From positions 43,018-107,017 of IMG/VR virus record IMGVR_UViG_3300031857_000054: 64,000 bases of DNA. The stretch is one strand, 5' to 3'. Below the pieces are notes generated by a model that ran no database searches, was not told the origin of the DNA, and worked only from the letters and a program-made list of their open reading frames with translations. Source of the DNA: a virus. Both the position numbers and the translations under genes were made by a program. Shown here piece by piece: positions 8,613 through 61,505 of this stretch (the stretch's first letter is position 1; each line of letters opens with the position of its first letter).

Positions 8613-8623
8613 CACCTACTAAT

Positions 8624-8782: not shown

Positions 8783-8785
8783 CCA

Positions 8786-8989: not shown

Positions 8990-8990
8990 T

Positions 8991-9308: not shown

Positions 9309-9309
9309 T

Positions 9310-21138: not shown

Positions 21139-21150
21139 CTACGAAAAATA

Positions 21151-21714: not shown

Positions 21715-21725
21715 TCTAAAATATA

Positions 21726-34988: not shown

Positions 34989-34989
34989 T

Positions 34990-35142: not shown

Positions 35143-35149
35143 GTAAGGC

Positions 35150-35179
35150 TTGATTTTTCTTGACAATAGAGTATATTTG
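35150..35179 (+). promoter_or_regulatory. Promoter for the virion cargo unit
   Basis: TTG (35150-35152) lies 19 bases before TATATTTG (35172-35179). A second TTGAC at 35160 is too close to serve. The leader to ATG 35241 is about 55 bases, longer than at the other promoters, and contains two palindromes. Confidence 0.75.
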
Positions 35180-35185
35180 TATTTA

Positions 35186-35224
35186 AACTTTTTAAGTTCA
35201 AGTATACTTAACTTCTAAAGTTAA
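35186..35224 (+). repeat. Two palindromes in the leader of the 35241 gene
   Basis: AACTT-TTT-AAGTT occupies 35186-35198 and TTAACTT-CTA-AAGTTAA occupies 35208-35224. Both share the AACTTnnnAAGTT core, spaced 22-24 bases apart (about two helical turns), which suits a dimeric regulator. They could also fold as small hairpins in the mRNA leader. Confidence 0.5.
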
Positions 35225-35240
35225 TTAATATTTTAAGTTA

Positions 35241-38120: not shown

Positions 38121-38132
38121 GATAAGTAACCT

Positions 38133-39832: not shown

Positions 39833-42800
39833 ATGTACACCCCAGGAACAATCAAAGCAATTGGACTGATGTCAAAAGGCGTTAGTTCAGATAGGGCATT
39901 TGCAGAAGGCCGTAATATAGATTTACAAGCAGCACAAACTAGAATAAACTTCTATACTCAAGAAAGTTTAAAGTCTAGTATGCTTACTAGTTTACCTAGT
40001 ACTGCCTCTAGCACTAATATAAATACGCCAGGGGTAGCTTCTACAACTCCTGCAAAGGTTACTAATCCCACCCCTTCTACTACTATTAGTAAAACGTGGG
40101 ATGACATGATAAAAGAAGGCTACAAAAGAAACACAGGAGACGGTTCTTACCTAGCCAATGCACCTGGTATGGTTCAAGCACCCGTAGCAACTGGTTCACA
40201 AAAGAAGTTAAAAACTTTTTTTGATGATAGGTATATGCCTACACAGAAAGAGTTAGAGCAACAAAAGAACATTGAAGTAAAAGATGATTTACTTTATATA
40301 GAGAATTCACTGAAGAATAATGGTTGGGGAGTAAAGAATGCAAATGAAGGGATTCAAGTAGCAGCTCAAAGAACTGCTTCTATCCTAAGTAAGCCTGTGT
40401 CTGAGACTAGCTTAGTCGGAGATTTAACTAGTATGTTGACTCCTGAAAAACAAGCCGAAGTAAAAGAACAAGAGAAACAGAGAGTAAAGTCTTTTGAAAC
40501 TAGTGCTAGTAATTACTTTAAATCTACCAGTATTCCTGATTTAGTAAAAACTAAGAAGTTACTTTATACCGATATTGATGGTCAACTAAAAGATTTAGAG
40601 GAACAGTCTAAGTATTGGAGTCAGTCAGCTATTCGAAGTGGAGATCAACAATCTATTAAGGATAGCCAAGAAAGAGTAGGTAAGATTACTGCAAAGAAAC
40701 TTGAGTTAAACAAACTTAAGAATTCTCTTGAGGATACCTACGAAAAGAGAGTTACTGCTATTAAGAGTAAAGAAACAGTTGGTGCGTTAGAACAGTTAAG
40801 AACTAACTTTAAAACAGACGAAGATTTCTTAAAAAGTCTAGACTCTTTTAAAAACAAAGCAGGTGGATTGGCTACTGTTAGTAGCGACTTTACTAAGGTA
40901 CTTAAAGACATCTACAACGAAAACTACCTTGATAGAGCACTAACTGAAGCGGACATTGAAACAGGGGGTAAGAAGGTAATAAATGAAATTGCTCTTCAGA
41001 GATTTCTAGAAGGCACTCCATTGACTACTGGTGCTTTAGGAGAAGTTAATGAAAGTAGGTATGATGGCTTTAAAGGAGATTTAATCAAATCGCACCTACA
41101 ATTAGGTCAAGGTATTACTACTGAGTTGACCAATAAAGTTATTACTGCGGTAAAAAGACAAGAACAACTTGTTAAAGAAGCTGAGTCGTCTACTATAACT
41201 CCAAACAGACTACAGGAGATTCAGAAAGAAATCTCAGTACTGCAACAAAGTGTTGACTTTAATAAAAAGTTGATTGACAAAACTAGTGAGATTCATAATC
41301 CAGAAGCATTTAAGACAAACAAAGAGCTTACTAACTTCTTAGGTACATATGTAGAAAGAGAAGAAAAGAAAGAAGCTTTAAGTAAGTTTTACTTTAAGCA
41401 GGATTATGGAGTAGCTAAAGGAGCTTATATAGTAGGACGTACTGGTCAAAAGGTAGCACAGGGAGTAGCTCAGCAGTTTTTAGGAAACATAATTGAAGGA
41501 CTAGGAGGTGCTACAGGCTGGGAATGGCTAGAGACAAAAGGACGTAGATTCAATAACGCAGTTACAGTTGAAGAATTAGTAAACTTTGATAAGGTTAACT
41601 CTAGAGGACAATATCAAACTACTGCAGATTTTATTTTTGAAGATGCTGAAGGTAACAGAGAGTACAACCCAAGTGCATTAGTATTCCAAGGAGGTGAGAT
41701 GTTACCTCTAATAGTAGGGTCAATGTATGGTGGTGGTGCCATTGCAGGTGGTGCTGGCCGATTAATGGCTAGGAATTTAAAGACTCTAACTGCAAAAGGA
41801 ATGATGAGTAGTGCAAGAGCAGCACAATTCACAGGCACACTTGCAAAGACTGGTAGTTATAGAGCAGCATTTCAAAATGTAACAGCAGCTAGTAAGAATC
41901 CATTAGTACAACAGTTGAGTGCAAGAGTACCTAACGCAATGAGTATGACTGCAATTGTTTACCCCCAACAGTTTGTCGCTACTTATAGAGACTTATACGA
42001 GAAGGGCGTAGAGAATGCTAGAACTAAGGCACATGCAATTGCGAGTATATCTACAGGAATAGAAGTTCTTACAGAGAACATATTTCCTGATATGAAGTAC
42101 TTAGATGATTTTGCGGAGAAAGGTATCTTCGGCAAAGCCTGGGTAGGTAGTTATCAGCAATACAGAACTTTATATGGCAATGTTTTTGGTGATGCTTTTA
42201 GTCCTACGACTTTAGATTACTTAGCTACAAGATCTTTGAATCTAGCTGGTAAGGGAGCTTCTGTAGGTAGGTTTATGTTGGCTCGTGGAACTGAGGAAGG
42301 AATAGAAGAAGTGTCAGCAGAGTTAATGAACTTCTTTGCTGATAACGAAGGGCTAGCAAACTTAAAAGGAGAACCTGCAAAAGAATTAACAGTTGATGGT
42401 TTGATTACAGCATTTTCAGGAAGTTACTTTACGTTTCCAATCGGAGCAGGTAAACAGATAAAGGCACATAATGAAAATAGAAAGTATGGTGAGATGTACG
42501 ACATCATGCTTAATGCTCAGTACTATAAAAACAAAATAGACCAAGAGTTAAAGGCAGGTAAGATAACAGCCGACAAAGCTGCTACTGCTTTAGGTAAGAT
42601 ACAAGAGTTAGAGGCAATAGAAAAAGAATACGGAGTTCGTAATCTTAAGAATCTAGACAATAAGAAACTAGAGCAGCTAACAGATTTAATGGAAGATCAA
42701 CATCTTCAGTTTGATTACTTTAAGAACATCTTAAAGAAAAACTCAATTGATGAGAAACTTACTTCCTTAGACAAACAGACTTATACTGAAGACCAAAAGA

Positions 42801-45800
42801 AAGAGCTGATAGCTATGTCTGAAGAGGCAGCTAAGACAATAGACCAGTATAAAAAGAAGTCTGATTTCTACAGTCAATTAACAGATGAAGATAAAAAAGG
42901 AGTTCTTGACAATAGTATTAATGGTAAGTTACAGTTAACTCGTTTTGCTAGAACGGAAGACATAGAAAACTTAGGATCAAATCTTGAGGACTATGCGGCG
43001 ACGGTTGTTGCAAGTAGAAGACCTGGTTACTTTGTTGAAAGTATTAGACAGTACAGAGATAACGTCAAAAAGATTAAAGATGAAAGAGAGCAGGCCGAGC
43101 AAGATGCAATTGCAGGAGGCACTTATAATCCTTTAGTTGACGCTATAGAGAACAAAACTCCCACCACTACTCCTACTAGTATTACATCACAAGATGAACT
43201 TCAAGGAGTATTAGCACAAGCTGTCATGGCTCCAGACAGAGGCGGAGACTTAGTTGCTTATTTTAATGGATCATTTGATCAGCAGTTAGAAGCAATTGAA
43301 GCAGATACAGAAAGAGTTACTGCAATGTACTTAGAGTCAGTATCTAGCTCAGGACAAAGTGGTGACACTATAGAAATGCAACCTGATGGTACTGAAGAAA
43401 TCAGTACTCAAGAAAGAGATCCTATAGACAACGATAAGCGAATTGCGGACTTAACAGAAGAACAGCAAGATGAGTTGGCTGAGATGCTTGCTGAACTTAA
43501 TAATCAATACGATGATGTTTTAGAAAGAAAGCAAACTATTGCTAAGGTAGTTGGAACTGCTATAGACGCTGTAGCACCTAGCGAGATAATGGGAATGACT
43601 GATGCAGCTGCTCAGACAGAAGCTTACACAGAGTGGGTTAAAGACTTACTTACTAAAGTAACAGAGGAAGCAGAAGCTGTTAGGCAAGTTATGGCTGATG
43701 ATACTTCTTTAGCTCAGAGTGTTTTCTACGACAAGATATCTTATCTTGAATATAAAGCAGACAATAAAGAAAAAATTGACAAGAAGTTAGCTGAGATTAA
43801 AAAAATTAAAGAAGAGAGAAAAGCTGCTGAAACTCCAACTGTAGAAGAAACAAGAAATAATGTAACTGCTAAAGAGAAGTCAGAGGAAACTGGCAAAGAA
43901 GTTAGCATTGAAGTTCCAGAGTTGATTCAATCAGATGTAACTCCAGAGTTTGCACAAGGTCTTACTGCGTTGGAAACTATGCCAAAGAGTAGACTTACAG
44001 CAACAGCAAGTCAAGCAGCAGGAGATATTGTTACAGATGAAGAGTACAATGCCCAACGTGGTGTTGTTATTCAAAACCTATTAGGAGAAGTTCTAGGTTC
44101 TACTTCCTTGGATTCTGCTTTGGCTAAGATGTACTCTATTATGGAGGCGGCCGAAGTATCAGTAGAAGAGAAAGCAAAAACCTTAGAGTTAATGAAGAAG
44201 GTTGCAAACAGTGAGCCTGTGCTTGAAGAGGACTACACTCACATGTTTGAGTTACTTTTAATCAAAGCAAACCTTGACTTAGCAAAGCTTAAGTTTACAG
44301 GTCCCGAAGCAGAAGTTGAGGTACCAGCAATAGTAGCAACACAGGTTGACGAAAGAACTGCCGAAGAGATAGAAAGAACTACTGCCATTCCTGCTCCTGT
44401 AACTAAGAAAGCAAAGACTAAAAAAGTAGAGGCTAAGATTAGTTTACCTGCAGAACAACCTACTGCTGAAACAAATGTTATTGATACACTAGCAAACAAT
44501 CAAAAGATTGTAAGTGAAGTTAAAGTAGAAGTAGCTACAACAGAGGAAGCAAAATCTGAAGTACAGAGTAAGAATCAAATAGTAAGTACTAGTAAAATAT
44601 ATAGGCCTGGTGACCCAAATGCTAGAACTGCAGAGCATTTTACTATCCAAGAAAAAATTATTGAGTCTGTAGACAAAGAGTTTAGGACTGTTAATACAGC
44701 AGTAGTAGATTTGTTTACTATTGTGGAGCAAGTCTTAGGAGCAGAAACTTTAGTTAAGATGGAAGAAATCTTTGACGAAGTACAATCTAAACCTACACCA
44801 GAAAGACTGCAAGAGTTACGTGGGCAGTTCTTAAAACTATTCCCTGCAAACTTTATGGATATTGGGAAAATTGAATATATGTTTGATACTCAGATGGTTA
44901 AGAATGTTTCTCAGTCTGACTTAACACAAGTTAATGAAAGAAACCTTAATGCTACTGAAACTGAAATTTACCAGGTAAACAAAGGAAGAAAAGTTCCAGA
45001 AGTAAAACTAAAAGATGGTCGTATCATAAAAGATACTGTAGTAAGAGAGAGTAATGGAAAATTACTTTTGTTAAAAGCAGTAGATGTACTGGATGCAAAA
45101 GGTAAACCGATTACAGATAAAGAAGGTAAACCTATTGTTGATAAAACTTGGATTCGTTTTGAGCAAATAGCAAATCCTACTGAGATACTTGCCTACCCAA
45201 TAATAGGAACAGAGCCAATGACTTTTACTGCTTTAAATGTACTAACGTTTACAGTATTAGATGGTGATGGAAAAGTTCAGAAGTATAACAACAATGGGGA
45301 TAAGACAGAGTCAGGTAATAAAGTATTGATAACTTATTTGCCTACAAGTAAAGGAAAAGCAAATCCTACCCCACAGCAAAAAGCATTTGATACTATGAGG
45401 AATTCAGTATCCCAAGGAGAAAGAGTAGTACACAATGTAAAGATTACAGGACCTAGTGATAGTGATTCTGAAGTTACAATGCCAGACAAAACTGTTAAAA
45501 AAGGAAACTATGGATTTACATTCAGTACAGAAACTTTAACCCCTGTAGATAAGACATTACCTATAGCAGAAGTTGAAGAAGAAAAAGCAGTTACTCAAAT
45601 TATTGCAAATAAAGGGAATCAACAAGATTCTGTAAATGCTTTAGAGGTTCTAGTAAAGAAAGCTAAAACTATACCAGATCCTTCTAAAGAAGGTTACTTA
45701 ATTGACGGAGAAAGATATGAGCGTCAGTCAGGCTTCACTAGACGTGTTATGGGTAAGACTCAAGTAGATACAGAAGATTCTGTTATCAACATGGAAAAGG

Positions 45801-46687
45801 GAGCTGCTGTAGGTAACTTGTTAGACATCATTGGACGTGATGTTCTTGGAGGTCGTACCGTAAAATCTTTGAGTGAGTATATCAAAGAAGCAGAAGGTAT
45901 GGGTAAATCTCTGAGAGAAGGTAAAGGATACAAACTTGAGTTTACACAAGAACAGTTTGATGCTTTAGTAGCAGAACTAGAAAGTGTTAAAAAAGAACTT
46001 ACTCGTCAGGGATACAAAGTATATACTGAAGGACTTGTAATCTATCGTAAGTACACTCAGGAAGAAAAGGTAGCTACAGGTTTTGCTGGTGTTGCAGGTG
46101 CTATGGATATTGTAGCAGTAGACAAAGACGGAGGTGTTCATATCATTGACTTCAAGAACAAGAAGTTTAAGAATACTCAAACGTTTAAGTCAAGCATGTA
46201 TAACTCCAATGAACGTTTCCCTTCTAACATTAGTAAGTGGGGTACGCAGCAAACTGCATACGGTGTATTATCAGGTGACTTTGGTTTACCTATTCGTTCA
46301 ATTAATATCTTAGCTTTTGCTTCTCAGTATGAAGAAAGTAATGGAGTTATTACAGTTAATATGTTGAGTAAAGGTAGTGACCAGGTTCCTGTGTTAGCAC
46401 AGAACAAGAGTGACATTTCTGACTCAATTATTAGATTAAAATATGATAGCAAAATTGCTGCACAAATTAATTCACGTACAGTAAAGCCTACTCCTCAACC
46501 ACTTAACAAGGAAGCTGATAAAGTACAACTAGAGACTATCAAAGAAAATGTTCCTGATTTGACTGATTCAGAAGCTAGAAACGCTAGTCTTGTATTATCT
46601 TCGCTAGGTATGAATTTAAACAATGTAAAATCTGGTTTAGATTCTAAAGACGAAAATCCCACCACTAAAAATCCCCCTACCTGTTAA
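39833..46687 (+). CDS. Giant virion protein with C-terminal PD-(D/E)XK nuclease-like domain
   Basis: This 2284-residue protein is probably packaged and ejected. The N-terminal half is mostly helical; around residues 620-660 there are Gly/Ala-rich hydrophobic stretches (GGEMLPLIVGSMYGGGAIAGG) that could interact with membranes, followed by a conserved-looking EEGIEEVSAELM. The C-terminal domain (about 1960-2210) fits the PD-(D/E)XK nuclease fold: a helix with EKGAAVGNLLDIIGRD, a VYTEG strand with Glu (about 2077), AMDIVAVD with Asp2092, and HIIDFKNKK with Asp2106 and Lys2108. These are the positions of the E-D-(D/E)xK catalytic set. It may cut host DNA or process phage DNA after entry. It is followed after two bases by the RNA polymerase gene. 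Confidence 0.65.
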   Translation: MYTPGTIKAIGLMSKGVSSDRAFAEGRNIDLQAAQTRINFYTQESLKSSMLTSLPSTASSTNINTPGVASTTPAKVTNPTPSTTISKTWDDMIKEGYKRNTGDGSYLANAPGMVQAPVATGSQKKLKTFFDDRYMPTQKELEQQKNIEVKDDLLYIENSLKNNGWGVKNANEGIQVAAQRTASILSKPVSETSLVGDLTSMLTPEKQAEVKEQEKQRVKSFETSASNYFKSTSIPDLVKTKKLLYTDIDGQLKDLEEQSKYWSQSAIRSGDQQSIKDSQERVGKITAKKLELNKLKNSLEDTYEKRVTAIKSKETVGALEQLRTNFKTDEDFLKSLDSFKNKAGGLATVSSDFTKVLKDIYNENYLDRALTEADIETGGKKVINEIALQRFLEGTPLTTGALGEVNESRYDGFKGDLIKSHLQLGQGITTELTNKVITAVKRQEQLVKEAESSTITPNRLQEIQKEISVLQQSVDFNKKLIDKTSEIHNPEAFKTNKELTNFLGTYVEREEKKEALSKFYFKQDYGVAKGAYIVGRTGQKVAQGVAQQFLGNIIEGLGGATGWEWLETKGRRFNNAVTVEELVNFDKVNSRGQYQTTADFIFEDAEGNREYNPSALVFQGGEMLPLIVGSMYGGGAIAGGAGRLMARNLKTLTAKGMMSSARAAQFTGTLAKTGSYRAAFQNVTAASKNPLVQQLSARVPNAMSMTAIVYPQQFVATYRDLYEKGVENARTKAHAIASISTGIEVLTENIFPDMKYLDDFAEKGIFGKAWVGSYQQYRTLYGNVFGDAFSPTTLDYLATRSLNLAGKGASVGRFMLARGTEEGIEEVSAELMNFFADNEGLANLKGEPAKELTVDGLITAFSGSYFTFPIGAGKQIKAHNENRKYGEMYDIMLNAQYYKNKIDQELKAGKITADKAATALGKIQELEAIEKEYGVRNLKNLDNKKLEQLTDLMEDQHLQFDYFKNILKKNSIDEKLTSLDKQTYTEDQKKELIAMSEEAAKTIDQYKKKSDFYSQLTDEDKKGVLDNSINGKLQLTRFARTEDIENLGSNLEDYAATVVASRRPGYFVESIRQYRDNVKKIKDEREQAEQDAIAGGTYNPLVDAIENKTPTTTPTSITSQDELQGVLAQAVMAPDRGGDLVAYFNGSFDQQLEAIEADTERVTAMYLESVSSSGQSGDTIEMQPDGTEEISTQERDPIDNDKRIADLTEEQQDELAEMLAELNNQYDDVLERKQTIAKVVGTAIDAVAPSEIMGMTDAAAQTEAYTEWVKDLLTKVTEEAEAVRQVMADDTSLAQSVFYDKISYLEYKADNKEKIDKKLAEIKKIKEERKAAETPTVEETRNNVTAKEKSEETGKEVSIEVPELIQSDVTPEFAQGLTALETMPKSRLTATASQAAGDIVTDEEYNAQRGVVIQNLLGEVLGSTSLDSALAKMYSIMEAAEVSVEEKAKTLELMKKVANSEPVLEEDYTHMFELLLIKANLDLAKLKFTGPEAEVEVPAIVATQVDERTAEEIERTTAIPAPVTKKAKTKKVEAKISLPAEQPTAETNVIDTLANNQKIVSEVKVEVATTEEAKSEVQSKNQIVSTSKIYRPGDPNARTAEHFTIQEKIIESVDKEFRTVNTAVVDLFTIVEQVLGAETLVKMEEIFDEVQSKPTPERLQELRGQFLKLFPANFMDIGKIEYMFDTQMVKNVSQSDLTQVNERNLNATETEIYQVNKGRKVPEVKLKDGRIIKDTVVRESNGKLLLLKAVDVLDAKGKPITDKEGKPIVDKTWIRFEQIANPTEILAYPIIGTEPMTFTALNVLTFTVLDGDGKVQKYNNNGDKTESGNKVLITYLPTSKGKANPTPQQKAFDTMRNSVSQGERVVHNVKITGPSDSDSEVTMPDKTVKKGNYGFTFSTETLTPVDKTLPIAEVEEEKAVTQIIANKGNQQDSVNALEVLVKKAKTIPDPSKEGYLIDGERYERQSGFTRRVMGKTQVDTEDSVINMEKGAAVGNLLDIIGRDVLGGRTVKSLSEYIKEAEGMGKSLREGKGYKLEFTQEQFDALVAELESVKKELTRQGYKVYTEGLVIYRKYTQEEKVATGFAGVAGAMDIVAVDKDGGVHIIDFKNKKFKNTQTFKSSMYNSNERFPSNISKWGTQQTAYGVLSGDFGLPIRSINILAFASQYEESNGVITVNMLSKGSDQVPVLAQNKSDISDSIIRLKYDSKIAAQINSRTVKPTPQPLNKEADKVQLETIKENVPDLTDSEARNASLVLSSLGMNLNNVKSGLDSKDENPTTKNPPTC

Positions 46688-46689: not shown

Positions 46690-49600
46690 ATGAACGCTTG
46701 TAGCATAAAAGGAACGCCCTACGAAGAAGAGTACAGACAGTTTATGTCTGAGGGTCGAATGATATTTGCATGGAATAAAAACAATGAACAGCCTCTAGAT
46801 AAAATAAAAGTAGGTAATGAAGTTGTAGAAAATCCATTGTACACCGAGTTGATGGCTCATCCTATTACACAAGGTAATAGGACAGAGGCATTAAAAATCA
46901 TTGCCGAGACATTTCAAAGCGACTTTACAAGTAAGTATACTCCAGGAGATAATGGACAGTTTTCTTTAGTTCAAGTTATAGATTACCTACAGCAAAAACA
47001 AAAGAGAATTGAGGATGCTTTAGCTCAGAAGATACAGAGTGTAAACGTAACTACAAGTAAAAGTATTAACTTCTATGAGGCTCAGATTAACGGAACCCCG
47101 ACAGAGATTCACTTTAGTGATGCTGAAGGACAAGAAATCTTTGAAACCTTTGAGTACATGCTTGGTGAGTATGGTAGTTGGGCTGAAGTACAACAACAGT
47201 TATTAAGTCATAAGAATAACCTAATCTCTAAGATTGATCCCAACAACGCTACTAGTATAGACATTAAACAACTAAAGGCATTGGTAGAGATATCAGAAAA
47301 CTTTGAGTTGTTTAGAGATTGGTATGAGGACCAAGAAGGTGTAGTAGGTATAGAAGAACTCGAAGCTGAATTAGGAGAGAGTCAAGACTGGAAGACTAAA
47401 GAGAAGTCACAGAAAGAAAGAGCAAGTAAAAGAATCCTTGCACTAGTAACTTCACTGCCGTCTTATAGAAAAGCAAGTGTAGGAGAATACAACTTTGCTG
47501 AGGAGAGACCATACAAAAGTGATGAGAAGGTAATAATCCAAGGAACATTACTAGGTTTACCTAAGTCTGGTGACTTCCAAAAGAACTGGAACTTGTTGAG
47601 TACAGCTTTATCGGGAATTACCGATTATACAAAACAATATGATGAGATTGCAATCTTAGCAAAAACTCATCCTCAGTTTAACAATCTACTAAAAAAGATT
47701 CCTAACCCACGTGTAGCAAACAGTACAAAGACAATCAAACAAATTATGTTTGCTATGGGACTAAAGAGAATCTTTAGTAACCCAGAAACAATAGCTGTAT
47801 CCCTTGACGTAAGTAAGAAAGGTAACTCTGTGTTTGTTACCCAACAGATAAAAGGATTCAGAAACATCAAGAACCTATTCAATCAATTAGACAAAAACTA
47901 CTTTGCGTATAACAAAGACTACGCAATGGTGGGAGATACTGGTACAGAGTTTAACGTAGATAAATTTGTCTCTGACTTTTCAAATCTGTTTTCTAATGAT
48001 GTAGCTAAAGCTGCACTCATGATGAAGGATGTAAAGAAGAAGAAAGAACTTATCAAAGGTTTGTTTACTGGTCCTAATAAAAGTTACTACATCAATGAGT
48101 TTACTAAGTTGTTAAATGCACTAGGAGTAGGGTTATCTAATAAAGAGTATTTACTGCCTTCTAACATTGGTACAACAACTGAAATGTATGCTGAGTACTT
48201 TGCAAGTTTCTCAAACATCTTTGCTAAGTTAAGACTAACTGCTCAAATCAATAGTGAACTTTTAAAGAACAGTAGACCTACAATCAGTATTAAAGGTCCT
48301 TTGGCTTACATAGCAAATGCTGATGCGGCTGTTTTTCCTGATGGAAAGAACCCTTCTGAGGATGTTAAAGCGGCAGCACAACAACTTGTTTCTGATAGAA
48401 AAACTCCATTCAAGATAGAAGGAGTATTTGGTTTCCTACAGAAGAAGCAATCAGAATTAACAAGACTCGTAGAGTACATTAGTTCTTATGATATAGAACT
48501 TCGTCCTAGTTCTTACTTGACTGCAGAAGACAAAAAGAAGTTTATAAGAGGCCCATGGTTTTACTTGACTCAAAACACAAAAGCTGTTAATGAGGCTAGT
48601 AACTATGAAGAGTTAATTACAACTCCAGGTTTTGAAAGATTTGACTACCGCAAGAATCCAGATATTCTTGGATCTGTTTGGTTGACTCGTCTATTTGGTT
48701 TACCTAAAACTGTTAGAGAGATTGAAAGTCGTCCCCTCAATAGTTATAAAAAACAAGAGAAGTTTGGACTTCCTGTAAACCTTGAAATTAGAGACTTCAA
48801 TGGTATAGAGTTCAAGAACATGGGAGAAAAGGTAGGTAAAACTACCACTAACCTACATCCTGGTGATAAAGTTATGCAGGACTTTATGAGTTTCTTTCAA
48901 AGCACAGAGATGGAGAACATCCGTTTTGGAGACAAGTCAAGTTCATTTAGCATTTACTTCAGTAACCCTGTACTTGGAGAGAAGATATATGTCCCTATCT
49001 CTACTAGTAGATTAGAAGGAAAGCCTGATGGTGACGCAGAGATAAGTGCTAAGCAGCAATTCCTAGATACAATGACAGGGTATTTGCAATCTGAGTTCAC
49101 TAGAGTTTTGGATTTGATTAGTAACCCTCAGTCAGCAAATACTACCTATCAGAAGTACGGTAAGAACCTATTTATCTTCGGAGAGATTCTACCTGATATA
49201 GCAGACAAAGTAAAAAATGCAGAGACAAGAGAGCAACTAGTTAGTTTGTACGAACTTGCTGTACAATCACTTCCTGCAGCTTTAGATAACTATTTTAAGA
49301 AAGAAGCAAGTAATCTTGTACGTACTATGGTTAAGACTATGTCTTTGCCTATAGACAGACAATCTAGACCTACTGATGAAAGAACTAGATTGTTGAGTAC
49401 AGTTGCATCTTTGAATAAGTTAAAGTTTGTTAACAGCCAGTTACTTCCAAAAGGCTATGACTTAAAAGTAACTGCAAATAACCTACAGTATCTTGCTGAG
49501 TTGTACATAAAGAATGGATTCATCAACAACGTAGAGTTTATGAAATTCTTTGTAGGTGACTTAGCAAACTTCAATAAGACAGACAAAGATGCTCGTGAGG

Positions 49601-52600
49601 TATTTAAACGTATTCCTTTTACTTCTTCTCCTGGAACTCCTCCATATTGGGATAGCGCTTTACAAGAATTTTTCAAAGAAGATGCTAACCAAGATTCTTT
49701 AAGTAGAATCTACACAGGCACATCACACGCATTTAGTCCTATTGTAAGAACTGTAGTATACAACGATATACTTACGTTTGAGGCAGACGAGTTTGAGAAG
49801 TATAAAGAAGTCTATAACAGTGGTCTATGGGATTCTCTTTCAGAGAACGAACGTTACGAGTATGATGCATACGTAAACAAAAGTGACGAAGAGGCAAATG
49901 CTCAAGGTGTAGTTACTTTAGATTTCTACAGAAACTATCTTATTTCTATTGAAGGTTGGAGTGACGCACAAGAAAAGTCATTCAATGACCAAGTAAGGAT
50001 AGCTCAGATTACCCAAGACCTAAAGAACAATCCTGCTAACGCACAAGACTTAATAGAAGAGCGTAGAGGACTTATTGAAAAGACAGGTAACGTACCATTC
50101 CCTCCTCTTAAGTTGGGACACTATGGACCTATAGTAGAAGATCCAAAGTTGAATGCTTTACACAAGTATTCTTTGGTTCCACTAATACCGAGTGCAATCA
50201 TTGGCAAACAACTTGAAAAACAGTTAGAGTTAATGTATCAGAACAGAGTTGACTATTATACTTTTAAATCTGGTTCTAAGATGGCTAACTACGGAGAGAT
50301 GTTAGATTTCTACAAAGTAGCTGAAGATGCTGATGGCAATCAAATGAAAGTAATGAATGATGCTCTTTCTGATAGGAACGTAACATCTATTCACTTACAT
50401 AACCTAAGACAGCAGCAGTACCAAGCACCTAAGTTTAAAGGAGAAAGTACTCTATCAACTCAGATGATGAAGTTGGTATTTGGAGATTTCTATGAGTTTG
50501 GTGAACTCTCTACTGATTTTACAGAACCTACTAGACAGTATGTAAGTAGTTTGTACGATAGGTTTAAGACTTCGTTGAACGACTTAGTTAAGTTTGAGCA
50601 AGTACGTCTAGAAAGAAAACTAGGAGTAACTAGAAACGCTGAAGGTAAGATAGAAAACATCAATCAACTTCAGTTGGCAAACTACCTTGCAAAAGAGTTT
50701 GAAAAGAAAGAAGTATCAGAATCACTTCGTAAGTATATCCAGGTAGATGATAAAGGTAACTTTAAGTACCCACTAGACGCTATCAATGACAGAAGTCAGA
50801 TAGAATCTATGTTGTTGAATCTAATCAACAGCAAAGTTATTAGTCAAAAAATCTTTGGAGAAAGTTATATTCAGATTGCAGGTTCTGGATTTGAAGCATC
50901 ACGTTTTGCTAAACCTACTAAAGAACAGTTAGAGAAGTATGGTGCAAACGACTTACAGTTCTACAGAGTAGATCCTGTTACAGGTGAGACTCTTCCTATG
51001 GAAGTAAGAGTAGGATTCAATCCTGAGAAACATAGCGGTTTACTTAAACTTATGTATAAGGAAAAACCAGTGGGTACTCTTGAGAATCTAAATGAGATTC
51101 TTAAGTCAGACAATCCATTGGCTCTTAAGTTTAAGGAGAAGTACAAAGAGCAGTTGACTATGGTTGGAGTACGTATTCCTGTACAAGGATTCCAATCAAT
51201 GGAACATGTAATTGTAAAAGAGTTTCTTCCAGAGTCTGCAGGTGCAATTATGATTCTTCCTGCACAGATTGTAGTTAAATCAGGGGGTGACTATGACATT
51301 GACAAACTTACTTTCTTTGAAACAGCGTATGACGAAAATGGTAACGTTATCGATAAAGCATTTGACTTAAAAGACTACGAGAGTAAGTTAGCTGAGCAGA
51401 GAGAACTTAAGAAAGAGAAACAACGTTTGTTAGGAATCCTTAAAGTAATCAAGGATGAGATGAACGAGAACGAGGCGTATGCTCAAAGAGAAGACTTAAA
51501 GAAAGAGTTAAAGAAGTTAGACGCTGAAGTAAAAAAATCACTAAAGAATCTTAACGGCCTACTAAATAGAGAAGAGTTCACAAAAGAAGACAAAGAAAAA
51601 GGACTCGACGAATTATCTGAAAGTAAGTATGCTTTAATGAGAGCAGTAGCTGACTTAAGGTCATTTGATGGGAAGAACGATACTAAAGCCTTAAATGTAA
51701 TGTCTGCTCTTAGAAAGGACTTAGCAGAAGTTAATAAGAAGATTAATCAAGTAGACGATTATAAAAAAGGCATAACTAACAACCTAGTACAAACTCTAAA
51801 AGAAGTATTGTCTATTGGTGAATTGTATGACCACTTAGTAGTTCCTAACAATAATAACATCCTTACCCAGTACACAGGTAAGAGTAGACCGATTAGCACC
51901 ACTCAGGTGTTTAATCCTATGACCTCTTGGAGAATCTACGCAGAGAACATCTTGTCTAAAGATGCTTTGGGTATCGATGCTAAGATTAACACTATGCAAA
52001 AGGAGTTTCAAAGAGCTAATCTTAAGTTCAACAGTAAACTCCTCAATGCCTACTATTTTCCATCAAACAAAGATGCTGAAGGTAACATACAACTAGGAGG
52101 CAAGAAAGACCAAGCAGGTAATCGTATATCTAAAATCCTAAGTGAGTTTATCAATGGTCACGTAGATATTGCAAAAGAAGATTGGATTATTCTTTTGGGT
52201 ATGAACCAAGAGACAAGTCCTCTAGCGCATGCTATGATTCTTGCAGGTACTCCTGTAAAAACAGTTATTGACTTTATTAAGTCTAAGCCAATACAATTGA
52301 TATTGGAGTTATCTAATCGTCCTGTAATCAACCAGAAACTAGACAAGGCATACTTTAGCAAGAACTCTGCTATTGTTTCTCTAATAAAAAGTATAGCATA
52401 CGAGATTACAGATCCAGATATTTCTAAAGAACTACAGTTAATAGCTAAGAATCAGACTGACAATCGAGTAAAAGGAAAGAAAGCATTAGGACAATACATT
52501 GAAACGTTGTTAAGTAATCCTAAGATAAACAAGTACTTAACTAATTTCAATCCAGAAGTAACACTAGTACCTGAAGAAACAGCCTTAAGAGACTTAGCTT

Positions 52601-54186
52601 ACTATCTTCAGTTTGGTGTAGTTGTAGCACAACAAGAAAGTCTAAGAGAACTTACCAGTTTAGCTGATTTTAACACAGCCAACTACAGAACTACTTTCCA
52701 AAGTGTAGAATTGTTGGACAAACAAAGCACATTGAAGAGTGCATTTAATGGAGAGGCAATTGACTTTATGTTTAAAGACTCTGCCTTGGCACAGTTTAAC
52801 GTAGGTTCTTTCACTTTAGATTTGATGAGTGAGACTTTTCCTCTTTCTGACTCTAAAGAAGTACATGCTCAATTGAATAAGATGCTTGAGTTCTCCGAGT
52901 TAGTTTCTGAGGACGAAAGAAGAGAAGCAATTACTCAGTACAAAAACAACCTACTGTACACTCACGTGGCTATGAATGCTAAGAATGAAAATGGTTCTTT
53001 GCTTGAGTACTACAGAGGGAAAGATGGATTGTTTGTTAAAAACATTGAGAACAACATGGCTCAACGTTTTGAAAAATTAGCTTCAAATCCCGATCTAAGA
53101 GGAAACTTCCTATTCAATAACTTATACATAGAAGACGATAACATCTTTGACAGAGAGTTTAGTTTCCATTTAAGAAACATTGAAAGTGTTGAGTATGGTA
53201 AACAGTACAGAGAAGCATTCCTAGAAGGGCTTAATCACGCTGATGCAGAGGTTAGAAGTTTCTTTAAAGACCTAGCATTGGGTTCTTTTATGCAGAACGG
53301 AGCTCACTATAGAAGTAGGGATGTATCTTCAGTAGTTCCCTTTGAGGCTTACGTAGAATACACTGCAACAGCCTATAACGAGCTAATAGACATGAAGGAC
53401 AACAATCCTGAAATGTTTAGCAAGTACTTAAGTCTAGTTGGATTTGCTACTGTGTTATCCAGAGCCAACGGTTCTAGACCTCTAATTGCCCTTCCGTCTT
53501 ATCTTTCTCAGTATCATAAAGAAGCCATTGATGCATTCTATCAATTGACTCCCGAGTTAGTAGAAAAAGTAACTGCACTAGAGAATGCAGTTTTAGGAAA
53601 AGAAGTAAGCCCAGTTACAAAACTAGAAGGACAGATGACATATTCCTATGGTAATGAAAAACGTCCTGATGTTACTGCTACTACTACTTTTGATGCAATT
53701 CTTAGTGGAGAAAGAACTGCTACGACTCGTTTTGAAAAGGACGGTAAATTAGACTATTGGAAAAGTGCTAAAGTAGGAGATATTATTACTTGGAAATCAG
53801 GGGATGGTCGTACTGTAGATGTAGAAGTAACTAAAGCATTACATCCTTTAGTTGGTTCTGGAAAGACTCCAGAGATATGGTCTAAGTTAGAGGGATGGTC
53901 AATAGGTCGTTTTAATACAAAGGTAAGACCTCTGATAAATCAAGCATATCAGATTGAGTTTAAATTAGTTAAGAGTGTAGATGTTACCAATACAAATAGT
54001 TTAAACCAAGATATGTTTGGTCCAGCAGAAACTCCTACTGATGTAGTGCCTCCTCAGAATCCTACTCTTCCTACTACTGATAAAGGTCCAGTTAATCTTA
54101 AGAACAAGTTAAACCCAGGTCAACCTGGCAATGACGAAGGAAACTTAGATGGCTTGGGCTTTGAAGAGGTCAGCTGTGATGTATAA
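46690..54186 (+). CDS. Virion RNA polymerase (crAss-like, DxDxD) with C-terminal ASCH-like domain
   Basis: This 2498-residue protein is likely the single-chain, two-barrel RNA polymerase carried in crAss-like virions and injected to transcribe early genes. The metal-binding motif DYDID lies at 1534-1538 within KSGGDYDIDKLTFFE, preceded by VRIPVQGFQSMEHV (about 1497-1510), the block that precedes the motif in relatives. This matches the phage phi14:2 polymerase, related to eukaryotic RNA-dependent polymerases such as QDE-1. Helical charged segments around 1560-1690 may be an insertion. Residues about 2320-2425 form an ASCH-like domain: FDAILSGERTATTRFEKDG, then VGDIITWKSGDGR. The gene directly follows the nuclease-like giant and ends where the 54187 promoter begins. 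Confidence 0.85.
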   Translation: MNACSIKGTPYEEEYRQFMSEGRMIFAWNKNNEQPLDKIKVGNEVVENPLYTELMAHPITQGNRTEALKIIAETFQSDFTSKYTPGDNGQFSLVQVIDYLQQKQKRIEDALAQKIQSVNVTTSKSINFYEAQINGTPTEIHFSDAEGQEIFETFEYMLGEYGSWAEVQQQLLSHKNNLISKIDPNNATSIDIKQLKALVEISENFELFRDWYEDQEGVVGIEELEAELGESQDWKTKEKSQKERASKRILALVTSLPSYRKASVGEYNFAEERPYKSDEKVIIQGTLLGLPKSGDFQKNWNLLSTALSGITDYTKQYDEIAILAKTHPQFNNLLKKIPNPRVANSTKTIKQIMFAMGLKRIFSNPETIAVSLDVSKKGNSVFVTQQIKGFRNIKNLFNQLDKNYFAYNKDYAMVGDTGTEFNVDKFVSDFSNLFSNDVAKAALMMKDVKKKKELIKGLFTGPNKSYYINEFTKLLNALGVGLSNKEYLLPSNIGTTTEMYAEYFASFSNIFAKLRLTAQINSELLKNSRPTISIKGPLAYIANADAAVFPDGKNPSEDVKAAAQQLVSDRKTPFKIEGVFGFLQKKQSELTRLVEYISSYDIELRPSSYLTAEDKKKFIRGPWFYLTQNTKAVNEASNYEELITTPGFERFDYRKNPDILGSVWLTRLFGLPKTVREIESRPLNSYKKQEKFGLPVNLEIRDFNGIEFKNMGEKVGKTTTNLHPGDKVMQDFMSFFQSTEMENIRFGDKSSSFSIYFSNPVLGEKIYVPISTSRLEGKPDGDAEISAKQQFLDTMTGYLQSEFTRVLDLISNPQSANTTYQKYGKNLFIFGEILPDIADKVKNAETREQLVSLYELAVQSLPAALDNYFKKEASNLVRTMVKTMSLPIDRQSRPTDERTRLLSTVASLNKLKFVNSQLLPKGYDLKVTANNLQYLAELYIKNGFINNVEFMKFFVGDLANFNKTDKDAREVFKRIPFTSSPGTPPYWDSALQEFFKEDANQDSLSRIYTGTSHAFSPIVRTVVYNDILTFEADEFEKYKEVYNSGLWDSLSENERYEYDAYVNKSDEEANAQGVVTLDFYRNYLISIEGWSDAQEKSFNDQVRIAQITQDLKNNPANAQDLIEERRGLIEKTGNVPFPPLKLGHYGPIVEDPKLNALHKYSLVPLIPSAIIGKQLEKQLELMYQNRVDYYTFKSGSKMANYGEMLDFYKVAEDADGNQMKVMNDALSDRNVTSIHLHNLRQQQYQAPKFKGESTLSTQMMKLVFGDFYEFGELSTDFTEPTRQYVSSLYDRFKTSLNDLVKFEQVRLERKLGVTRNAEGKIENINQLQLANYLAKEFEKKEVSESLRKYIQVDDKGNFKYPLDAINDRSQIESMLLNLINSKVISQKIFGESYIQIAGSGFEASRFAKPTKEQLEKYGANDLQFYRVDPVTGETLPMEVRVGFNPEKHSGLLKLMYKEKPVGTLENLNEILKSDNPLALKFKEKYKEQLTMVGVRIPVQGFQSMEHVIVKEFLPESAGAIMILPAQIVVKSGGDYDIDKLTFFETAYDENGNVIDKAFDLKDYESKLAEQRELKKEKQRLLGILKVIKDEMNENEAYAQREDLKKELKKLDAEVKKSLKNLNGLLNREEFTKEDKEKGLDELSESKYALMRAVADLRSFDGKNDTKALNVMSALRKDLAEVNKKINQVDDYKKGITNNLVQTLKEVLSIGELYDHLVVPNNNNILTQYTGKSRPISTTQVFNPMTSWRIYAENILSKDALGIDAKINTMQKEFQRANLKFNSKLLNAYYFPSNKDAEGNIQLGGKKDQAGNRISKILSEFINGHVDIAKEDWIILLGMNQETSPLAHAMILAGTPVKTVIDFIKSKPIQLILELSNRPVINQKLDKAYFSKNSAIVSLIKSIAYEITDPDISKELQLIAKNQTDNRVKGKKALGQYIETLLSNPKINKYLTNFNPEVTLVPEETALRDLAYYLQFGVVVAQQESLRELTSLADFNTANYRTTFQSVELLDKQSTLKSAFNGEAIDFMFKDSALAQFNVGSFTLDLMSETFPLSDSKEVHAQLNKMLEFSELVSEDERREAITQYKNNLLYTHVAMNAKNENGSLLEYYRGKDGLFVKNIENNMAQRFEKLASNPDLRGNFLFNNLYIEDDNIFDREFSFHLRNIESVEYGKQYREAFLEGLNHADAEVRSFFKDLALGSFMQNGAHYRSRDVSSVVPFEAYVEYTATAYNELIDMKDNNPEMFSKYLSLVGFATVLSRANGSRPLIALPSYLSQYHKEAIDAFYQLTPELVEKVTALENAVLGKEVSPVTKLEGQMTYSYGNEKRPDVTATTTFDAILSGERTATTRFEKDGKLDYWKSAKVGDIITWKSGDGRTVDVEVTKALHPLVGSGKTPEIWSKLEGWSIGRFNTKVRPLINQAYQIEFKLVKSVDVTNTNSLNQDMFGPAETPTDVVPPQNPTLPTTDKGPVNLKNKLNPGQPGNDEGNLDGLGFEEVSCDV

Positions 54187-54220: not shown

Positions 54221-57200
54221 ATGTCTTGTATTGCTAAAATAAAATCACCTGTAAGTGGTAAGTCTATAAATAGTCCTGCGTACTATCAACTAACTTCTTT
54301 CTTTTCTCAAGCAGAGGGAAAGAAGGTATATGAGGCTATGACCACAGATACCTTCAAGGCCAACTTTGGCTTTGATTGGACTAAACCACATATCGGTGCT
54401 AGCACACGGGTAAACTACGCAGGTGAGCCTAAGATTCGTGAGATTAACCAACACCTTAAGTTGGGGATGTCCGAAGAAGAACTACAAGCAGCAGAACAGA
54501 TTGAAGAGATTGGAGTACTTGGTTATTTGGGAGAAACGTTTAGTTCTCCTAAAGCACTTGAGAACATAGGACTAGAGATTCAGTTAAATCCTAAGTTTGA
54601 CATGATTAACTATGAAGTCATTTCTGTAGGAAACAGATTCCAGTTGTCAGTTAAACCTAAAGTAGGAGAGAAAAAACAGTATCCAATAAGTAGAGAGATT
54701 CTTGAGAAGTTTAAGTTTCCTCAGTTTGTTATTGACTCAGTACAGGATTTTAACAACGCAACATTTAAAGAGTTAATAGATAACCTAGCTAGTAACTCAG
54801 AGTTAGAACCTTTCCAACAAGAGATACTTAAGAAGCTGTCTCCCTTGATGTCAAAGAATCCTACACTGAAGTTAGCGTTGTTTGATGACCTCAATGTAAC
54901 TGACGAGTATCAGCGTTCGTTCTACGACCCCAAGACAAACACAGTATACATTGCAAAATCAACTTACACTCCTACTGATAATAAGTTCTTGGCTAGAGAG
55001 ATTATCCACGAAGCAGTACATGCTTTTACAATCTCTATCCTAAATAATCCAAGAAACGCACAAGAGGTACAGTTTGTACAGGAGATGGAACAGTACTTTC
55101 AAAAGTACAGAAACATGAATCCTGAGTTACAAAGCTACTATGGTCTTAAGAACGTAGAGGAGTTTGTATCTGAGTTCCTGTCTAATCCTTACTTCAGAGA
55201 GCAACTACAAGTAGCAGAGGCGCAAAAAGAGGCATCTGCAGGAATCATAGAACGGATGTGGAATAGCATCAAAGGATTCCTTAACAGATACATCTTTGGA
55301 GACATGGGTTCTACCATGTTTGACCAAGTGCAGGAAACCCTAGATGACTACTTTGATTACTTGATGACACTACAGGATTATCCAGAAAGTCCAGCAGAAC
55401 ATCAAGTTAGGTTTAGTCAGCCTTTTCAGAACAGAGAACAGAAGCCAACAATCTATAGTAAGTTAACTGACTTCTACGAATACATTGATAGTAACGTAGA
55501 TAGTACAATTTGGAATCAGTTGAGTCAGAACCTTACTGACATTGGTGGTAAAGAAACAATTGAACTGAGAGCAATCAGTCGTCTTCAAGATACCTTTGGT
55601 AAAATCTCTACATCGGATATTACAGGAAGTTTAATTGCGTCTGGACAGTTTGCAGTTGAGTTAAGACAGTTTACAGCTAAGTTAGAAGAGGATTTAGAAA
55701 TCTTAACTAGAGCTACGTCATACTATAGGCCTGATGTACTCCTTAAGAAGTACAATAGTGCTATTGCAATTGCACAGAGTATTAGAGAACAGATTGAGGG
55801 CTTCCAAAATAACCTAGTAGACCAATTAACTTTTGCTACTTTCTCAGACTACGAAGCTAAGCAACTTAGAGACGTAGCTCAGAAACGATTAGATCTACAG
55901 AAAGAAGTAGCAAATATCGAAGACTATCGGAAGATTATTGAGGATGAGTTAAAAAAATCTAAAGCAGCTGTAGATGCAATTGAAGATAGAGCTAGGCGTG
56001 CCATGCTTGATCCAGTAGCAGAAGTAGCTTCTCGTTTATTTATTAAGATTGCTGAGGACATGAAGAGTCCTGAGCATCCTCTTAGAAAAGAGTTAGCAGA
56101 ATTGCTAGAGAAAAAAGCATACTACGAAAAGGTTGGTAATAAGAAACTACTACTTGACGTTGATAAACAAATCGTAGATGTAAAAAAAGCACTAGCATTT
56201 GCACCTACTCCTGAAAACATTAGAGCCTTATTAAACTCTTCTATGGACCAAGCAATGGCCAATGAAAACATGTTTACTAGGTATCTAAATGTAGGTGGTT
56301 TTTCAGGTGTACCTATTGTAGACATTGTAAATGCTTTTATAAATGCGCATACCACAGATGCAACTAACGATAACTTAGAAAAAGATGCTAAGATTAGAGA
56401 GATAGAAGAACGTATAGCTGCAAGAAATCGTAAGAAAGGGATTGGTAGGAATGTTCTGCAAAGTGTAAAAGGACAATTTACTGTTAAAACTTCTAGCCTT
56501 AAGGACAAGTTTGAAGGATTCTTTAGAGTAGTTCCTATAAAGTATTATGATAAGAAAGGCAATGTCAAAATAGTTACTCAGAAAGTATACAACACTCCTA
56601 TGAAGGAGGCTGAGTTTCAAAATGACTTAGGAGATTTGCAACATGCTTTGTATAAAGCACGTAGAACTGGAGAAGTTGATAAGATTGAAGCAGCTGAAAA
56701 AGCGTTAAAAACATTTTTAGATGACTACTCACAGACTCAGTTTACAAATGACTACTATGAGGCAGAGAAATTATTAAGTGATGATGCTAGAGAAGCACGT
56801 CAAGAGTTACTTAATGAGATAGAAAATTATAGTAGTGTCTTTGGGGATGAGGATTTGGATGTACTTAGGACTAACTCTGTTAGAGGTTCTAAGTCAGAGA
56901 ACGATCCTACCATGCGAGAAATAAGAGCAGCTAAGCGTAGGGCTTATGTGAGATTAGGTTCTATCTATAACGAAGATGGTACTGAAAAACCTATTGGAAG
57001 TAAAGAACGTGATATAGCTGAGTCTATTATTGCTTACAACAAAGCACGTAAGGAGTTAGATGTTGTTGAATTTGTTATTGGAGAAGAGACTCTAAACAAA
57101 TTTAATCAGATTAAAGACCAATTTGTTAGAAGGATATCTGAACTTAAATCTCAGGTTAGCAGTTTACAAGATACACTAGATGCTGCTATAATCGCTAACG

Positions 57201-60200
57201 ACTTATCTCAGGCTGAAGCAATTCAGAGTCTTATATTTAACAAAAAACTAGAGTTAGAAGCTGAAATTAAAAAGCAATCAGACTGGCTTGATGCAAATAG
57301 CAGAGTTGAGATTTTACCTGAGTTCTTTGAAAAGCAGCAAAACTTAAGTGACCAGATTAAAAACATCCTTCTTAAGTACGGAGAGAATCCAGAAGTTACT
57401 GAGAAGTATCAAAGATTATTTAGCGCAGTTAAAGGTTTCAGAGACCAAGACGGGACTATACAAGGTAGTCTAGTTGCAGAAGGACTGACTAAGACTATCA
57501 AGGATATTGAACAGTCTATTGAGGATTTAAAGAAACAGATTAAGAAAGACAGTAACATATCTGATGCAGATCAAAATGCTTTAAAGGCTTTGTTTAGTGA
57601 ACTCTATAATCTGCAGTCAAAAGTAAATACTCCGTACTACACAGAGACAGTAGAGACAATTAAACATAAACTAGAGGCAGATTTAACTGGTGAACAGAAG
57701 ACAGACATATTCAACCAGGCTAATAAAGAAGCTGATGCATTTATGTCTAATGGAAACTTACTTACTTTAAATCAACTTAGGTTGTTAAGTAGTGAGAACT
57801 TTCAACCTGATGAATACTTTGTAGGTAGAAACGCAGAAGACTTTGAAACCCAAGAAAGTGATAAAGAAGCAATAGTGTCTATGTTCAAGGAGATACTTGT
57901 TAGAAAGTATTTGAATGAACAATTAAGAGAAACAGATTGGTATAAGAATAACCACGTTGCTATTACCTACGAGGTTAAGACAGGAAACATGCTTGTGTTT
58001 CCTGACGGTTCGTCTAGGCCAGAGATGAGAGAGGTTACAGAGATGCGACCTATTTACATTTGGAGAAAGACTATCCCCAACAACCAGAAGTATATTAAAA
58101 GAGATAGCCCTAGCTTCGACTGGGCTACTCCTAGAATACGTACCGAGTATAAAAATCCTAACTATAAATTCTTAGGACAAGCACGCCCCCGTACTGATGC
58201 TAAAGACAACAAGTATGTTAACGAAGAGTACACTAAACTAAGTGACGAAGAAAAAGGTATCATGAATGATATCCTTGCAATCTATGAAGATGACCAGCGC
58301 TCTATGCCAGTGTCTCAGAGATTGAAAGGGTATGTAATGCCTAACGTATCTAAAGAAAGTAAAGAAGAGACAGTTGATTACTTCAGACCTTTATATAAAT
58401 TGTATAGCGCCATTAAGTCTTTAAAGGTAGCATTCAAAGAAAACGTTGTAGGGCAAGGAGATGAAGAAATAGAAGTAGACATTAGAGAAGCCCAAAAGAA
58501 AATTAGTAGAAAGACTAATGTACGTTTGATTAAGACAAGGTTCAAAGAGCCACTATCTGAGGGAGCATCTACTGATAATATCTTAGGTGCATTGCATGCA
58601 TACTCAATGTATGCTGCTGAGTTCAAAGGATTACAGAAAGCATTACCTACAGTTTTTGCTATTAGAGATACTTACGCTGCTAAAGGAAAAGAAGCCCGCG
58701 CAAAAAATCCTCAAGACGCTGCAACTGTTTGGCAGAAATTTAAAAGATCTTCTGGCAAGTTAGTAGACTCAGTAGTAGGAGCAGACGAAAGTCAGAAAGA
58801 ACTTATCCTTACTCAGATAGATGACCAGATTGCTAGATTTTTCTATGGTGCTTCTCTCAAAACAGGAAACAATGCAGTAAGTAGAGTGATTGATCGTTTG
58901 GTTAACCACATGACTAATACATTCCAAAAGTATGTGTTAAAGTGGAATCCTATGCGTGTAGTTAAAAACATAACTAGTAACATACTTAATGCCGTAGGAA
59001 ACACTTCTAAGTTTGGTTTAAGTAAAAAAGATATGTTGGCAGGTGTAGCAAAAGCTGCTTACCATAGAGCTGAGATTATAGGACTAGAGCAAGGCATGAC
59101 TAAAATGACTCCTTACGTTGCCAAGTTAATCTATTTTCGAGCCATCCCTCTTGCTGACCCTACTGATTTATACCGTACAATTAACTCAGGATTTGTAACA
59201 CGCTACTTAAACGGAGATAACTATAATGCTCAAATCTTTTCTTCTAATGAGGCTATATCTACAATGGGTATCTATGAAGCGTTTATGGCAAAGACGTATG
59301 TACCATTTGAAGGTCCTAACGCAGCGCCTGGAACAAAGATTAAACTTCAAGATGCTTATGACTATATAGACGGTAAGTTAGTTCCTAAGGAAGGAGTATT
59401 TGGAATTAATCGCAGTAAACTGAATGAGTTAGTTGCTGAACGAAATGACTTTATTATTTCATACTTGCAAACTAATGGAGTTGACAACTACGACAAACTT
59501 TCTACAGTAAAAAAGGTTGAGTTAGGAAAACAACTTGCAGCTAAGTTTGACACTAGAATTAAAGCTGAAGAAGCATTTATCTCTAGTAGAGTTGACAAGT
59601 TAAAAGAAGTAGAACGTGAGATGAGAGATAAAATTTTCCAACTTTATACTGCAACTCAAGGTAACTACACGAGACGTGGTAGGTCCTACTACCAAAGTGT
59701 AGTGTGGTTAAAAGCACTCATGTCGATGAAAGCTTGGTTATTCCCACAAGCAAGCAATATGTATGGTGGTAAAAAGTTTTCTATAACTACAGGTAGAATG
59801 GATCAGGGTATGTACTCTACATTCTTAGGTGCTGTTCGTAGAAAAGCTTTGGGGGTAAGAAGGCAAGGTATGAGTTTGGCTATGGACTATCAGTTTACTG
59901 AAAGAGAAAAGGAAGCTACTCAACGTGTAGGTTGGAACATGGCCAATGCAAGTGTAATGTACTTACTAAGTTACTATATAGTAAACTCAGCTATGCAGGC
60001 TCTTAGAGGAGCAGGTGAAGATGACGATTACAGTGATTGGGCACAGTACTTGATTGCTCAATTAGCACTGGGTATGTTTGATGAAAACGCAGGTTCATTG
60101 AATCCAGTATTTGCACCAGCTATCCAATACAATAAATTTAAAACAGACCCACTTAAGAAACCTTATGAAGAGAAAGGAGTAGCAGGTAGAATCTTAAGTA

Positions 60201-61193: not shown

Positions 61194-61505
61194 ATGAGCG
61201 TAAATGCAGAACAACTATTTAATGAGCAGTCTAAAAAGTTAAGACAGATTGCCGCAAGTACAGGTCTAATGGCAGGAGCTGGAGGCTTTGTACGTTACTC
61301 AACAGGAACTGTAAACGATGTACAGTTTACTGCAATTGTACCACAAGAAGACACAGTCTTTACTTCATTTAAAGTTAATGGAGTAGAACGCTTAACTGCT
61401 AATGGTATGAGTGGAGTTACGTTTAAGCAGTTTGCTTACCTTCCAGGTGGCGGAATTATTACAGGATTTGCTATCTCCTCAGGTAGTATAATTGCTTATA
61501 AGTAA
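61194..61505 (+). CDS. Small protein, likely fibre-associated
   Basis: This 103-residue protein has a helical N-terminus (EQLFNEQSKKLRQIAAST) and a beta-rich, Gly/Thr-rich remainder (AIVPQEDTVFTSFKVNG, then a terminal GIITGFAISSGSIIAYK strand). Such small proteins with a short beta domain ending in '..GSIIAYK' precede fibre genes in many phages, to my recollection. It shares one base with the repeat fibre gene. It may be an adaptor or a head or tail fibre base protein; no enzyme motif is seen. Confidence 0.45.
   Translation: MSVNAEQLFNEQSKKLRQIAASTGLMAGAGGFVRYSTGTVNDVQFTAIVPQEDTVFTSFKVNGVERLTANGMSGVTFKQFAYLPGGGIITGFAISSGSIIAYK

Follow-up and report, generated by a model that had tools for sequence, protein, structure and literature searches.

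Large multidomain transcription proteins, together with a PDDEXK domain, have been described in crAss-like phages (Yutin et al. 2021, PMC7886860). For crAss001, Bayfield et al. 2023 (PMC10172136) report the detection of gp47, gp49 and gp50 in the virion by mass spectrometry, as well as the formation of disulfides in crassvirus tail and portal-vertex proteins. The delivery of the cargo proteins is treated there as a proposed model only, according to which they exit before the DNA in a partly unfolded state. Polyvalent proteins, including N4-like virion RNA polymerases (vRNAPs) with metallopeptidase, ART or RNase domains, have been described by Iyer et al. 2017 (PMC5512222), a paper in which the term crAss is not present.

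The locus considered here comes from a virus record of 107,017 bases, and the final 64,000 nucleotides of that record, in which it lies, are referred to as the window. The window encodes TerL, the portal and the major head protein (PHROGs), as well as a 2498-residue open reading frame on the plus strand (46690..54186), which begins with ATG and contains no internal stop. The original prediction had read this frame as a crAss-like virion polymerase encoded in one unbroken chain, on the basis of the DYDID motif and the upstream RIPVQGFQSM block; the two motifs are found exactly at residues 1534-1538 and 1495-1504, respectively, and the chain is indeed continuous. With the standard code the frame has no interruption, and there is no need to invoke an intein, stop-codon recoding or an intron. 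A single unbroken vRNAP chain is normal in most of the crAss-like phages seen here and is thus unremarkable by itself. A split or truncated vRNAP frame was encountered in four loci (L029 at 3019-9849, L081, L083 and L122), where an intron, recoding or an assembly error is possible.

The similarity to gp66, the phi14:2 polymerase, becomes visible by profile-profile and fold comparison, unlike in direct scans: the whole vRNAP gave zero matches to Pfam and PHROG, and a PDB sequence search with the single protein or a shallow profile returned nothing useful. In the hhalign comparison, a profile built from 14 relatives can be aligned to gp66 from profile position 246 to 1873 (probability 99.5%); tblastn against phage records matches crAss-like phages whose identity around the motif is 20-25%. 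The motif block is invariant or near-invariant across 82 aligned relatives, the aspartates being invariant, and is therefore not a product of chance. In 12 diverse vRNAPs, that of the window among them, the invariant positions comprise the three aspartates, three lysines and, upstream of the motif, one Arg and one Pro, among others; K1141 and K1159 of the window align with two of these lysines. They lie in the first (beta-like) double-psi-barrel region (50077..50499, plus strand, barrel limits approximate), located from the alignment and the fold of the enclosing region, and the DYDID metal-binding motif (51289..51303, plus strand) lies in the second (beta-prime-like) barrel. The AlphaFold2 model of residues 1090-1584, calculated with 82 diverse rows, has a pLDDT of 89.5 and a pTM of 0.85, and its top PDB match in Foldseek is 6vr4_A, the phi14:2 virion RNAP (E 1.3e-12, probability 1.00), with AR9 RNAP, QDE-1 (E 4e-4) and bacterial beta-prime chains ranked lower. 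An earlier model, which covered residues 935-1905 and drew on 21 close relatives, was of poor quality (pLDDT 46) and was set aside.

The absence of a double-psi-barrel fold around the motif had been chosen beforehand as the outcome that would refute the polymerase reading, which survived this test, since the predicted fold best matches 6vr4_A; the proposed profile comparison with gp66 was likewise positive. Taking into account the profile, the fold, DxDxD, the lysines and the synteny, the ORF is securely assigned as the catalytic subunit of a crAss-like vRNAP, a new member of a known family, and the vRNAP tree (one gene, no order-level markers) places it among crAss-like and environmental relatives. 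By analogy with phi14:2 and crAss001, the protein is probably packed in the virion and injected into the bacterium, and it is expected to be an active polymerase. For this phage such activity is a prediction only, so that a DxDxD-bearing virion protein which has lost RNA polymerisation may be considered; with DYDID, the conserved lysines and the fold all intact, it is extremely unlikely.

Two further giant genes flank the polymerase on the same strand. The upstream giant protein, UP (2284 aa, 39833..46687), is by synteny the counterpart of phi14:2 g067; its C-terminal part is variable between relatives, and a weak PD-(D/E)XK-like stretch is found at 46097-46270 (PDDEXK_1 only at E 0.086). The downstream giant protein, DN (2299 aa, 54221..61120), is a homologue of the phi14:2 g065 'RNA polymerase associated protein' (tblastn, E 5e-13), and the gene order UP-vRNAP-DN matches the g067-g066-g065 block. 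Ahead of UP, four long ORFs (31891-39821; 484, 548, 959 and 562 aa) contain zero cysteines and are perhaps further virion or ejected proteins. Three ORFs at 20475-23651 are cysteine-rich (4.7%, 6.4% and 3.0%), in contrast to the cysteine-poor cargo block, and the repeats of a 542-aa ORF at 61505-63133 resemble BspA/DUF285 surface proteins by eye only.

A first feature that goes beyond the polymerase assignment is the position of the cysteines in this block. UP, vRNAP and DN together contain 4 cysteines in 7081 residues, and about 72 would be expected from the 1.02% content of the other proteins of the window. The only cysteine of UP is its last residue, C2284 (46682..46684); vRNAP has C4 (46699..46701) and C2496 of 2498 (54175..54177); and the only cysteine of DN is C3 (54227..54229), all on the plus strand. 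These positions correspond to one cysteine on each side of both gene junctions. The same pattern is readily apparent in phi14:2, where g067 has only C1797, its last residue, g066 only C3 and C2179 of 2180, and g065 only C3. It recurs in crAss001, with C2339 of 2341 in gp47, C5, C1334 and C2404 of 2412 in gp50, and C5 in gp49. DAC15, cr128_1 and Dulem virus 41 carry the same four junction cysteines, some members having extra internal ones, as is also observed for some Suoliviridae gut phages. Overall, some 100 diverse relatives keep this pattern along with phi14:2 and crAss001; among the close set, each complete vRNAP possesses exactly two cysteines, one near each end, and the terminal cysteine is the sole near-invariant column in the vRNAP C-terminal alignment. 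N4 vRNAP (3500 aa), gp51 and gp52 contain zero cysteines, which suggests that cysteine avoidance may be general for virion proteins of this kind, and against such a background the junction cysteines stand out.

Across 80 diverse IMG/VR loci, the UP C-terminal cysteine is present in 26/27 unfused relatives and the DN N-terminal one in 63/64 relatives. A crude control, made up of every remaining ORF of 500 aa or more in these loci and unscreened for missed block members or spurious antisense frames, has the cysteine at the N-terminus in 14/47 cases and at the C-terminus in 12/57. The exceptions to the cysteine rule are L052, where the lone cysteine of UP is 31 residues from the end, L062, which has no adjacent DN gene, and L087, which is interrupted by a stop. 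The annotated start of crAss002 gp33 (L043, 12151) is probably 32 codons early, and an internal start at M33 gives MSC as in its relatives. In Intestiviridae (L042 1551-4124, L043 1456-3129 and L046 1490-3763), another protein encoded ahead of UP carries a lone cysteine close to its C-terminus, for example p-crAss gp47 (C856 of 857).

Gene fusions within the family provide a natural experiment, and fused ORFs are a better control than the crude set above. In the 80 loci, the vRNAP N-terminal cysteine is found in 33/33 proteins with a separate UP and in 0/29 with a fused UP (Fisher 2e-18, kinship ignored), and ORFs preceding a fused UP+vRNAP have the junction cysteine in 0/28 cases. At the other end, the C-terminal cysteine is present in 71/72 vRNAPs with a separate DN and in 0/2 with a fused one. 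Furthermore, the effect is selective for the junction concerned. In Suoliviridae and Fpv3, where UP and vRNAP form one ORF, the N-terminus lacks the cysteine and the vRNAP C-terminal and DN N-terminal cysteines are retained; in Intestiviridae (p-crAss, crAss002 and R. jaberico), where vRNAP and DN form one ORF, the fused C-terminus lacks it and the UP C-terminal and vRNAP N-terminal cysteines are retained, in crAss002 with the start at M33. L095 encodes UP, vRNAP and DN in a single 5002-aa ORF, and the terminal cysteines are absent. Many of the fusions are confirmed by UP and DN profiles, with the matches of the UP profile falling in the N-terminal portion of fused vRNAPs. A tree built from 112 vRNAP cores requires at least 8 changes of fusion state, 5 of them forced by well-supported branches, and the cysteine also changes 8 times. 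In 5/5 independent pairs the cysteine went the opposite way to fusion; for the well-supported branches alone, the sign test gives p 0.0625, the minimum possible with five pairs.

The loss of a pair upon fusion of exactly that junction makes homodimers or a metal site less likely. An ordinary crAss-like vRNAP, with end cysteines that are left over from the past or that each protein uses on its own, for example in a homodimer or in a ring between the vRNAP ends, agrees with the secure polymerase assignment, and homodimerization via a single terminal cysteine is possible for UP and DN. On the other hand, the cysteines are conserved among phages with about 20-25% core identity, and the fusion of a junction removes both of its cysteines while the pair at the other junction persists. 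A fused UP+vRNAP often keeps only the C-terminal cysteine, so a ring within vRNAP is impossible there. Taken as a whole, this explanation is unlikely. The end cysteines might instead mediate contacts other than disulfides, for example by contributing to a common metal site or by anchoring the proteins covalently to a part of the virion such as the portal or the tail. Contacts of this kind would fit the lack of clear density for most of these proteins in Bayfield et al. 2023 (PMC10172136), and also the lone C-terminal-side cysteine of some other Intestiviridae virion proteins, exemplified by p-crAss gp47. One cysteine per end makes a poor metal site, however, and an anchor leaves unexplained why the vRNAP N-terminal cysteine is absent upon UP fusion; this second explanation is considered improbable as well.

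The reading preferred here is that UP, vRNAP and DN are joined by head-to-tail disulfides, as suggested by cysteine position, which is the only evidence for it. It is held to be probable that the three giants form such a chain around vRNAP, with a cargo slot before the cysteine tail. Once the particle is assembled and exposed to oxidising conditions outside the cell, the cysteines would pair as UP-C~C-vRNAP-C~C-DN, converting three separately translated proteins, 7081 residues in all, into one head-to-tail chain. This chain would be kept in the capsid and then pass through the tail before the DNA does, and threading as one chain would fix both stoichiometry and order. If cargo exits ahead of the DNA, as in the model of Bayfield et al., linking the proteins would make their exit ordered and coupled. 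The reducing host cytoplasm would subsequently cut the disulfide links, freeing the polymerase, which would transcribe the early genes. In phages with fused genes, peptide bonds would do the same job and the cysteines would not be needed. A literature search, with the phi14:2 structure paper and Yutin 2018 outside its scope, returned no report of terminal cysteines or disulfides in these proteins, and the passages found in PMC10172136 contain no mention of a disulfide linkage of crAss001 gp47, gp50 and gp49.

The second feature of the polymerase concerns the region between its core, which ends near residue 2260, and the cysteine tail, where relatives differ completely. The conserved tail (LGFEEVSCDV type, 54151..54183, plus strand) lies beyond this slot and bears C2496. 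In the window, the slot holds one module (53632..53970, plus strand, residues about 2315-2427, with GERTATTR at 2340), and across relatives it is occupied by diverse domains. The window module is described as ASCH-like from weak matches below the Pfam cut-off. The best PDB match of the family profile is the ASCH-type protein YqfB 1te7 (E 0.055), with 9kyf at 0.36; the best module relative matches Pfam ASCH at E 0.0033, the L015 copy reaches 15.6 bits against a cut-off of 21.2, and the window copy alone gave no Pfam ASCH match. The window and L015 modules are 66% identical with flanks included, moderately above the core (52%). The same module occurs near the vRNAP C-terminus of the gut phages cr272_1 and cr114_1, and a narrow scan with it found only two near-identical contigs.

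Replacement of the module is evident from pairs of closely related loci. L020 and L021 share 97% DNA identity on both flanks and carry unrelated inserts (about 474 vs 1230 bp), while L022 and L023/L027 are 99% identical on the flanks and carry an ART-like and an ASCH-like module, respectively. Conversely, L021 and L005 have in common a 675-bp module at 91% DNA identity with cores about 65-74% identical, and L021 and L026 have 516 bp in common at 92%. The C-terminal part of UP varies too, as illustrated by a 545-bp insertion in L021 relative to L020. Recognisable cargo includes an AlkB-like oxygenase (L006, E 1.9e-14), ART-PolyVal (L022, E 5e-5) and an AAA_33 or Zeta-toxin-like kinase (L030, AAA_33 E 1e-18); DUF7831, a RecD-like helicase, RNase H, cpYpsA SLOG and DprA are found among further relatives. 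The annotations of the gut vRNAPs L034-L039 read 'nuclear pore complex protein-like', 'DNA helicase', 'DprA-like' or 'DUF1768', odd names which apparently stem from cargo or error.

Since all close loci are metagenome assemblies and some modules are known from single examples (L021 and L022), the variable C-terminal part could stem from chimeric assembly or from the neutral drift of a loose terminus, rather than being selected cargo. This is very unlikely: the flanks are collinear on both sides at 97-99% identity, distinct contigs agree (L020 with L028, L023 with L027), and the modules are intact recognisable domains, followed by the cysteine tail in nearly all cases. Moreover, modules 91-92% identical in DNA are found in phages whose cores are only about 65-74% identical. 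The end of vRNAP, and of UP, before the cysteine tail would serve as a slot in which phages swap small enzymatic modules that would reach the cell together with the polymerase. Their role, a guess from domain names, would most likely be to disarm host defence or to protect the incoming nucleic acid before phage gene expression. A search whose scope lay outside the main phi14:2 paper found no report of exchange at the vRNAP end.

In several relatives, the modules are separated by the heptapeptide TQPSTSV, encoded by the identical 21-nt word ACTCAACCATCTACTAGTGTT. This linker is found at module borders in the vRNAP C-termini of L006, L021, L024 and L026 and also in L130-L172. An exact IMG/VR scan located it at 48 sites on 43 contigs, all in frame within long ORFs, many of which end in a cysteine tail. 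In loci chosen independently of the word, it is exact at 4/6 sites and differs by 1-2 bases at the other two. Thousands of synonymous codings of TQPSTSV are possible, and conservation falls sharply outside the 21 nucleotides; from these sequence patterns we infer that the linker may provide short homology for module recombination. The window contains no copy of the linker even when up to 3 mismatches are allowed, and its own module is accordingly not put forward as a product of exchange through the linker. In its broader form, the proposal is that a chain held by single disulfides is an ejectable, redox-released equivalent of gene fusion, whose internal ends form a cargo slot partly shuffled via the 21-nt linker; on balance, this picture is rather favoured.

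Both the junction cysteines and the swappable C-terminal module are new here, being absent from the original prediction, and they concern the whole crAss-like group, the polymerase itself being an ordinary family member. A disulfide-linked chain, if true, would be a simple mechanism for the ordered delivery of several giant proteins through a narrow tail and would account for the occurrence of the genes as separate units in some crAss-like phages and as fusions in others; it can be tested directly by simple biochemistry. With a swappable module, the polymerase would serve as a vehicle for enzymes that act at time zero of infection, and the cargo slot of abundant gut phages and their environmental relatives is a place to seek new counter-defence functions.

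Among the known systems compared, the polyvalent proteins include large virion proteins in which a polymerase is joined to various predicted effector domains, and one relative of the window, L022, carries ART-PolyVal. The N4 vRNAP, by contrast, belongs to the T7-like single-subunit enzymes; its core is unrelated and it lacks cysteines. The single-chain two-barrel RNAP of phi14:2 (gp66, PDB 6VR4; Drobysheva et al., Nature, doi 10.1038/s41586-020-2921-5) shares DxDxD and the lysines with the window, and its three-gene block has the four junction cysteines in equivalent places; the window vRNAP differs from it in showing about 20% identity, in being 318 aa longer and in carrying an ASCH-like module before the tail. 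In crAss001, gp47, gp50 and gp49 form a homologous set with the same four terminal cysteines, but gp50 has one extra internal cysteine and gp47 is on the opposite strand, so the genes are not always arranged head to tail. Finally, the fused UP-vRNAP of Suoliviridae and Fpv3 and the fused vRNAP-DN of p-crAss and crAss002 have the same domains in the same order as the window; in these phages the parts are joined by a peptide bond, and the cysteines of the fused junction are missing.
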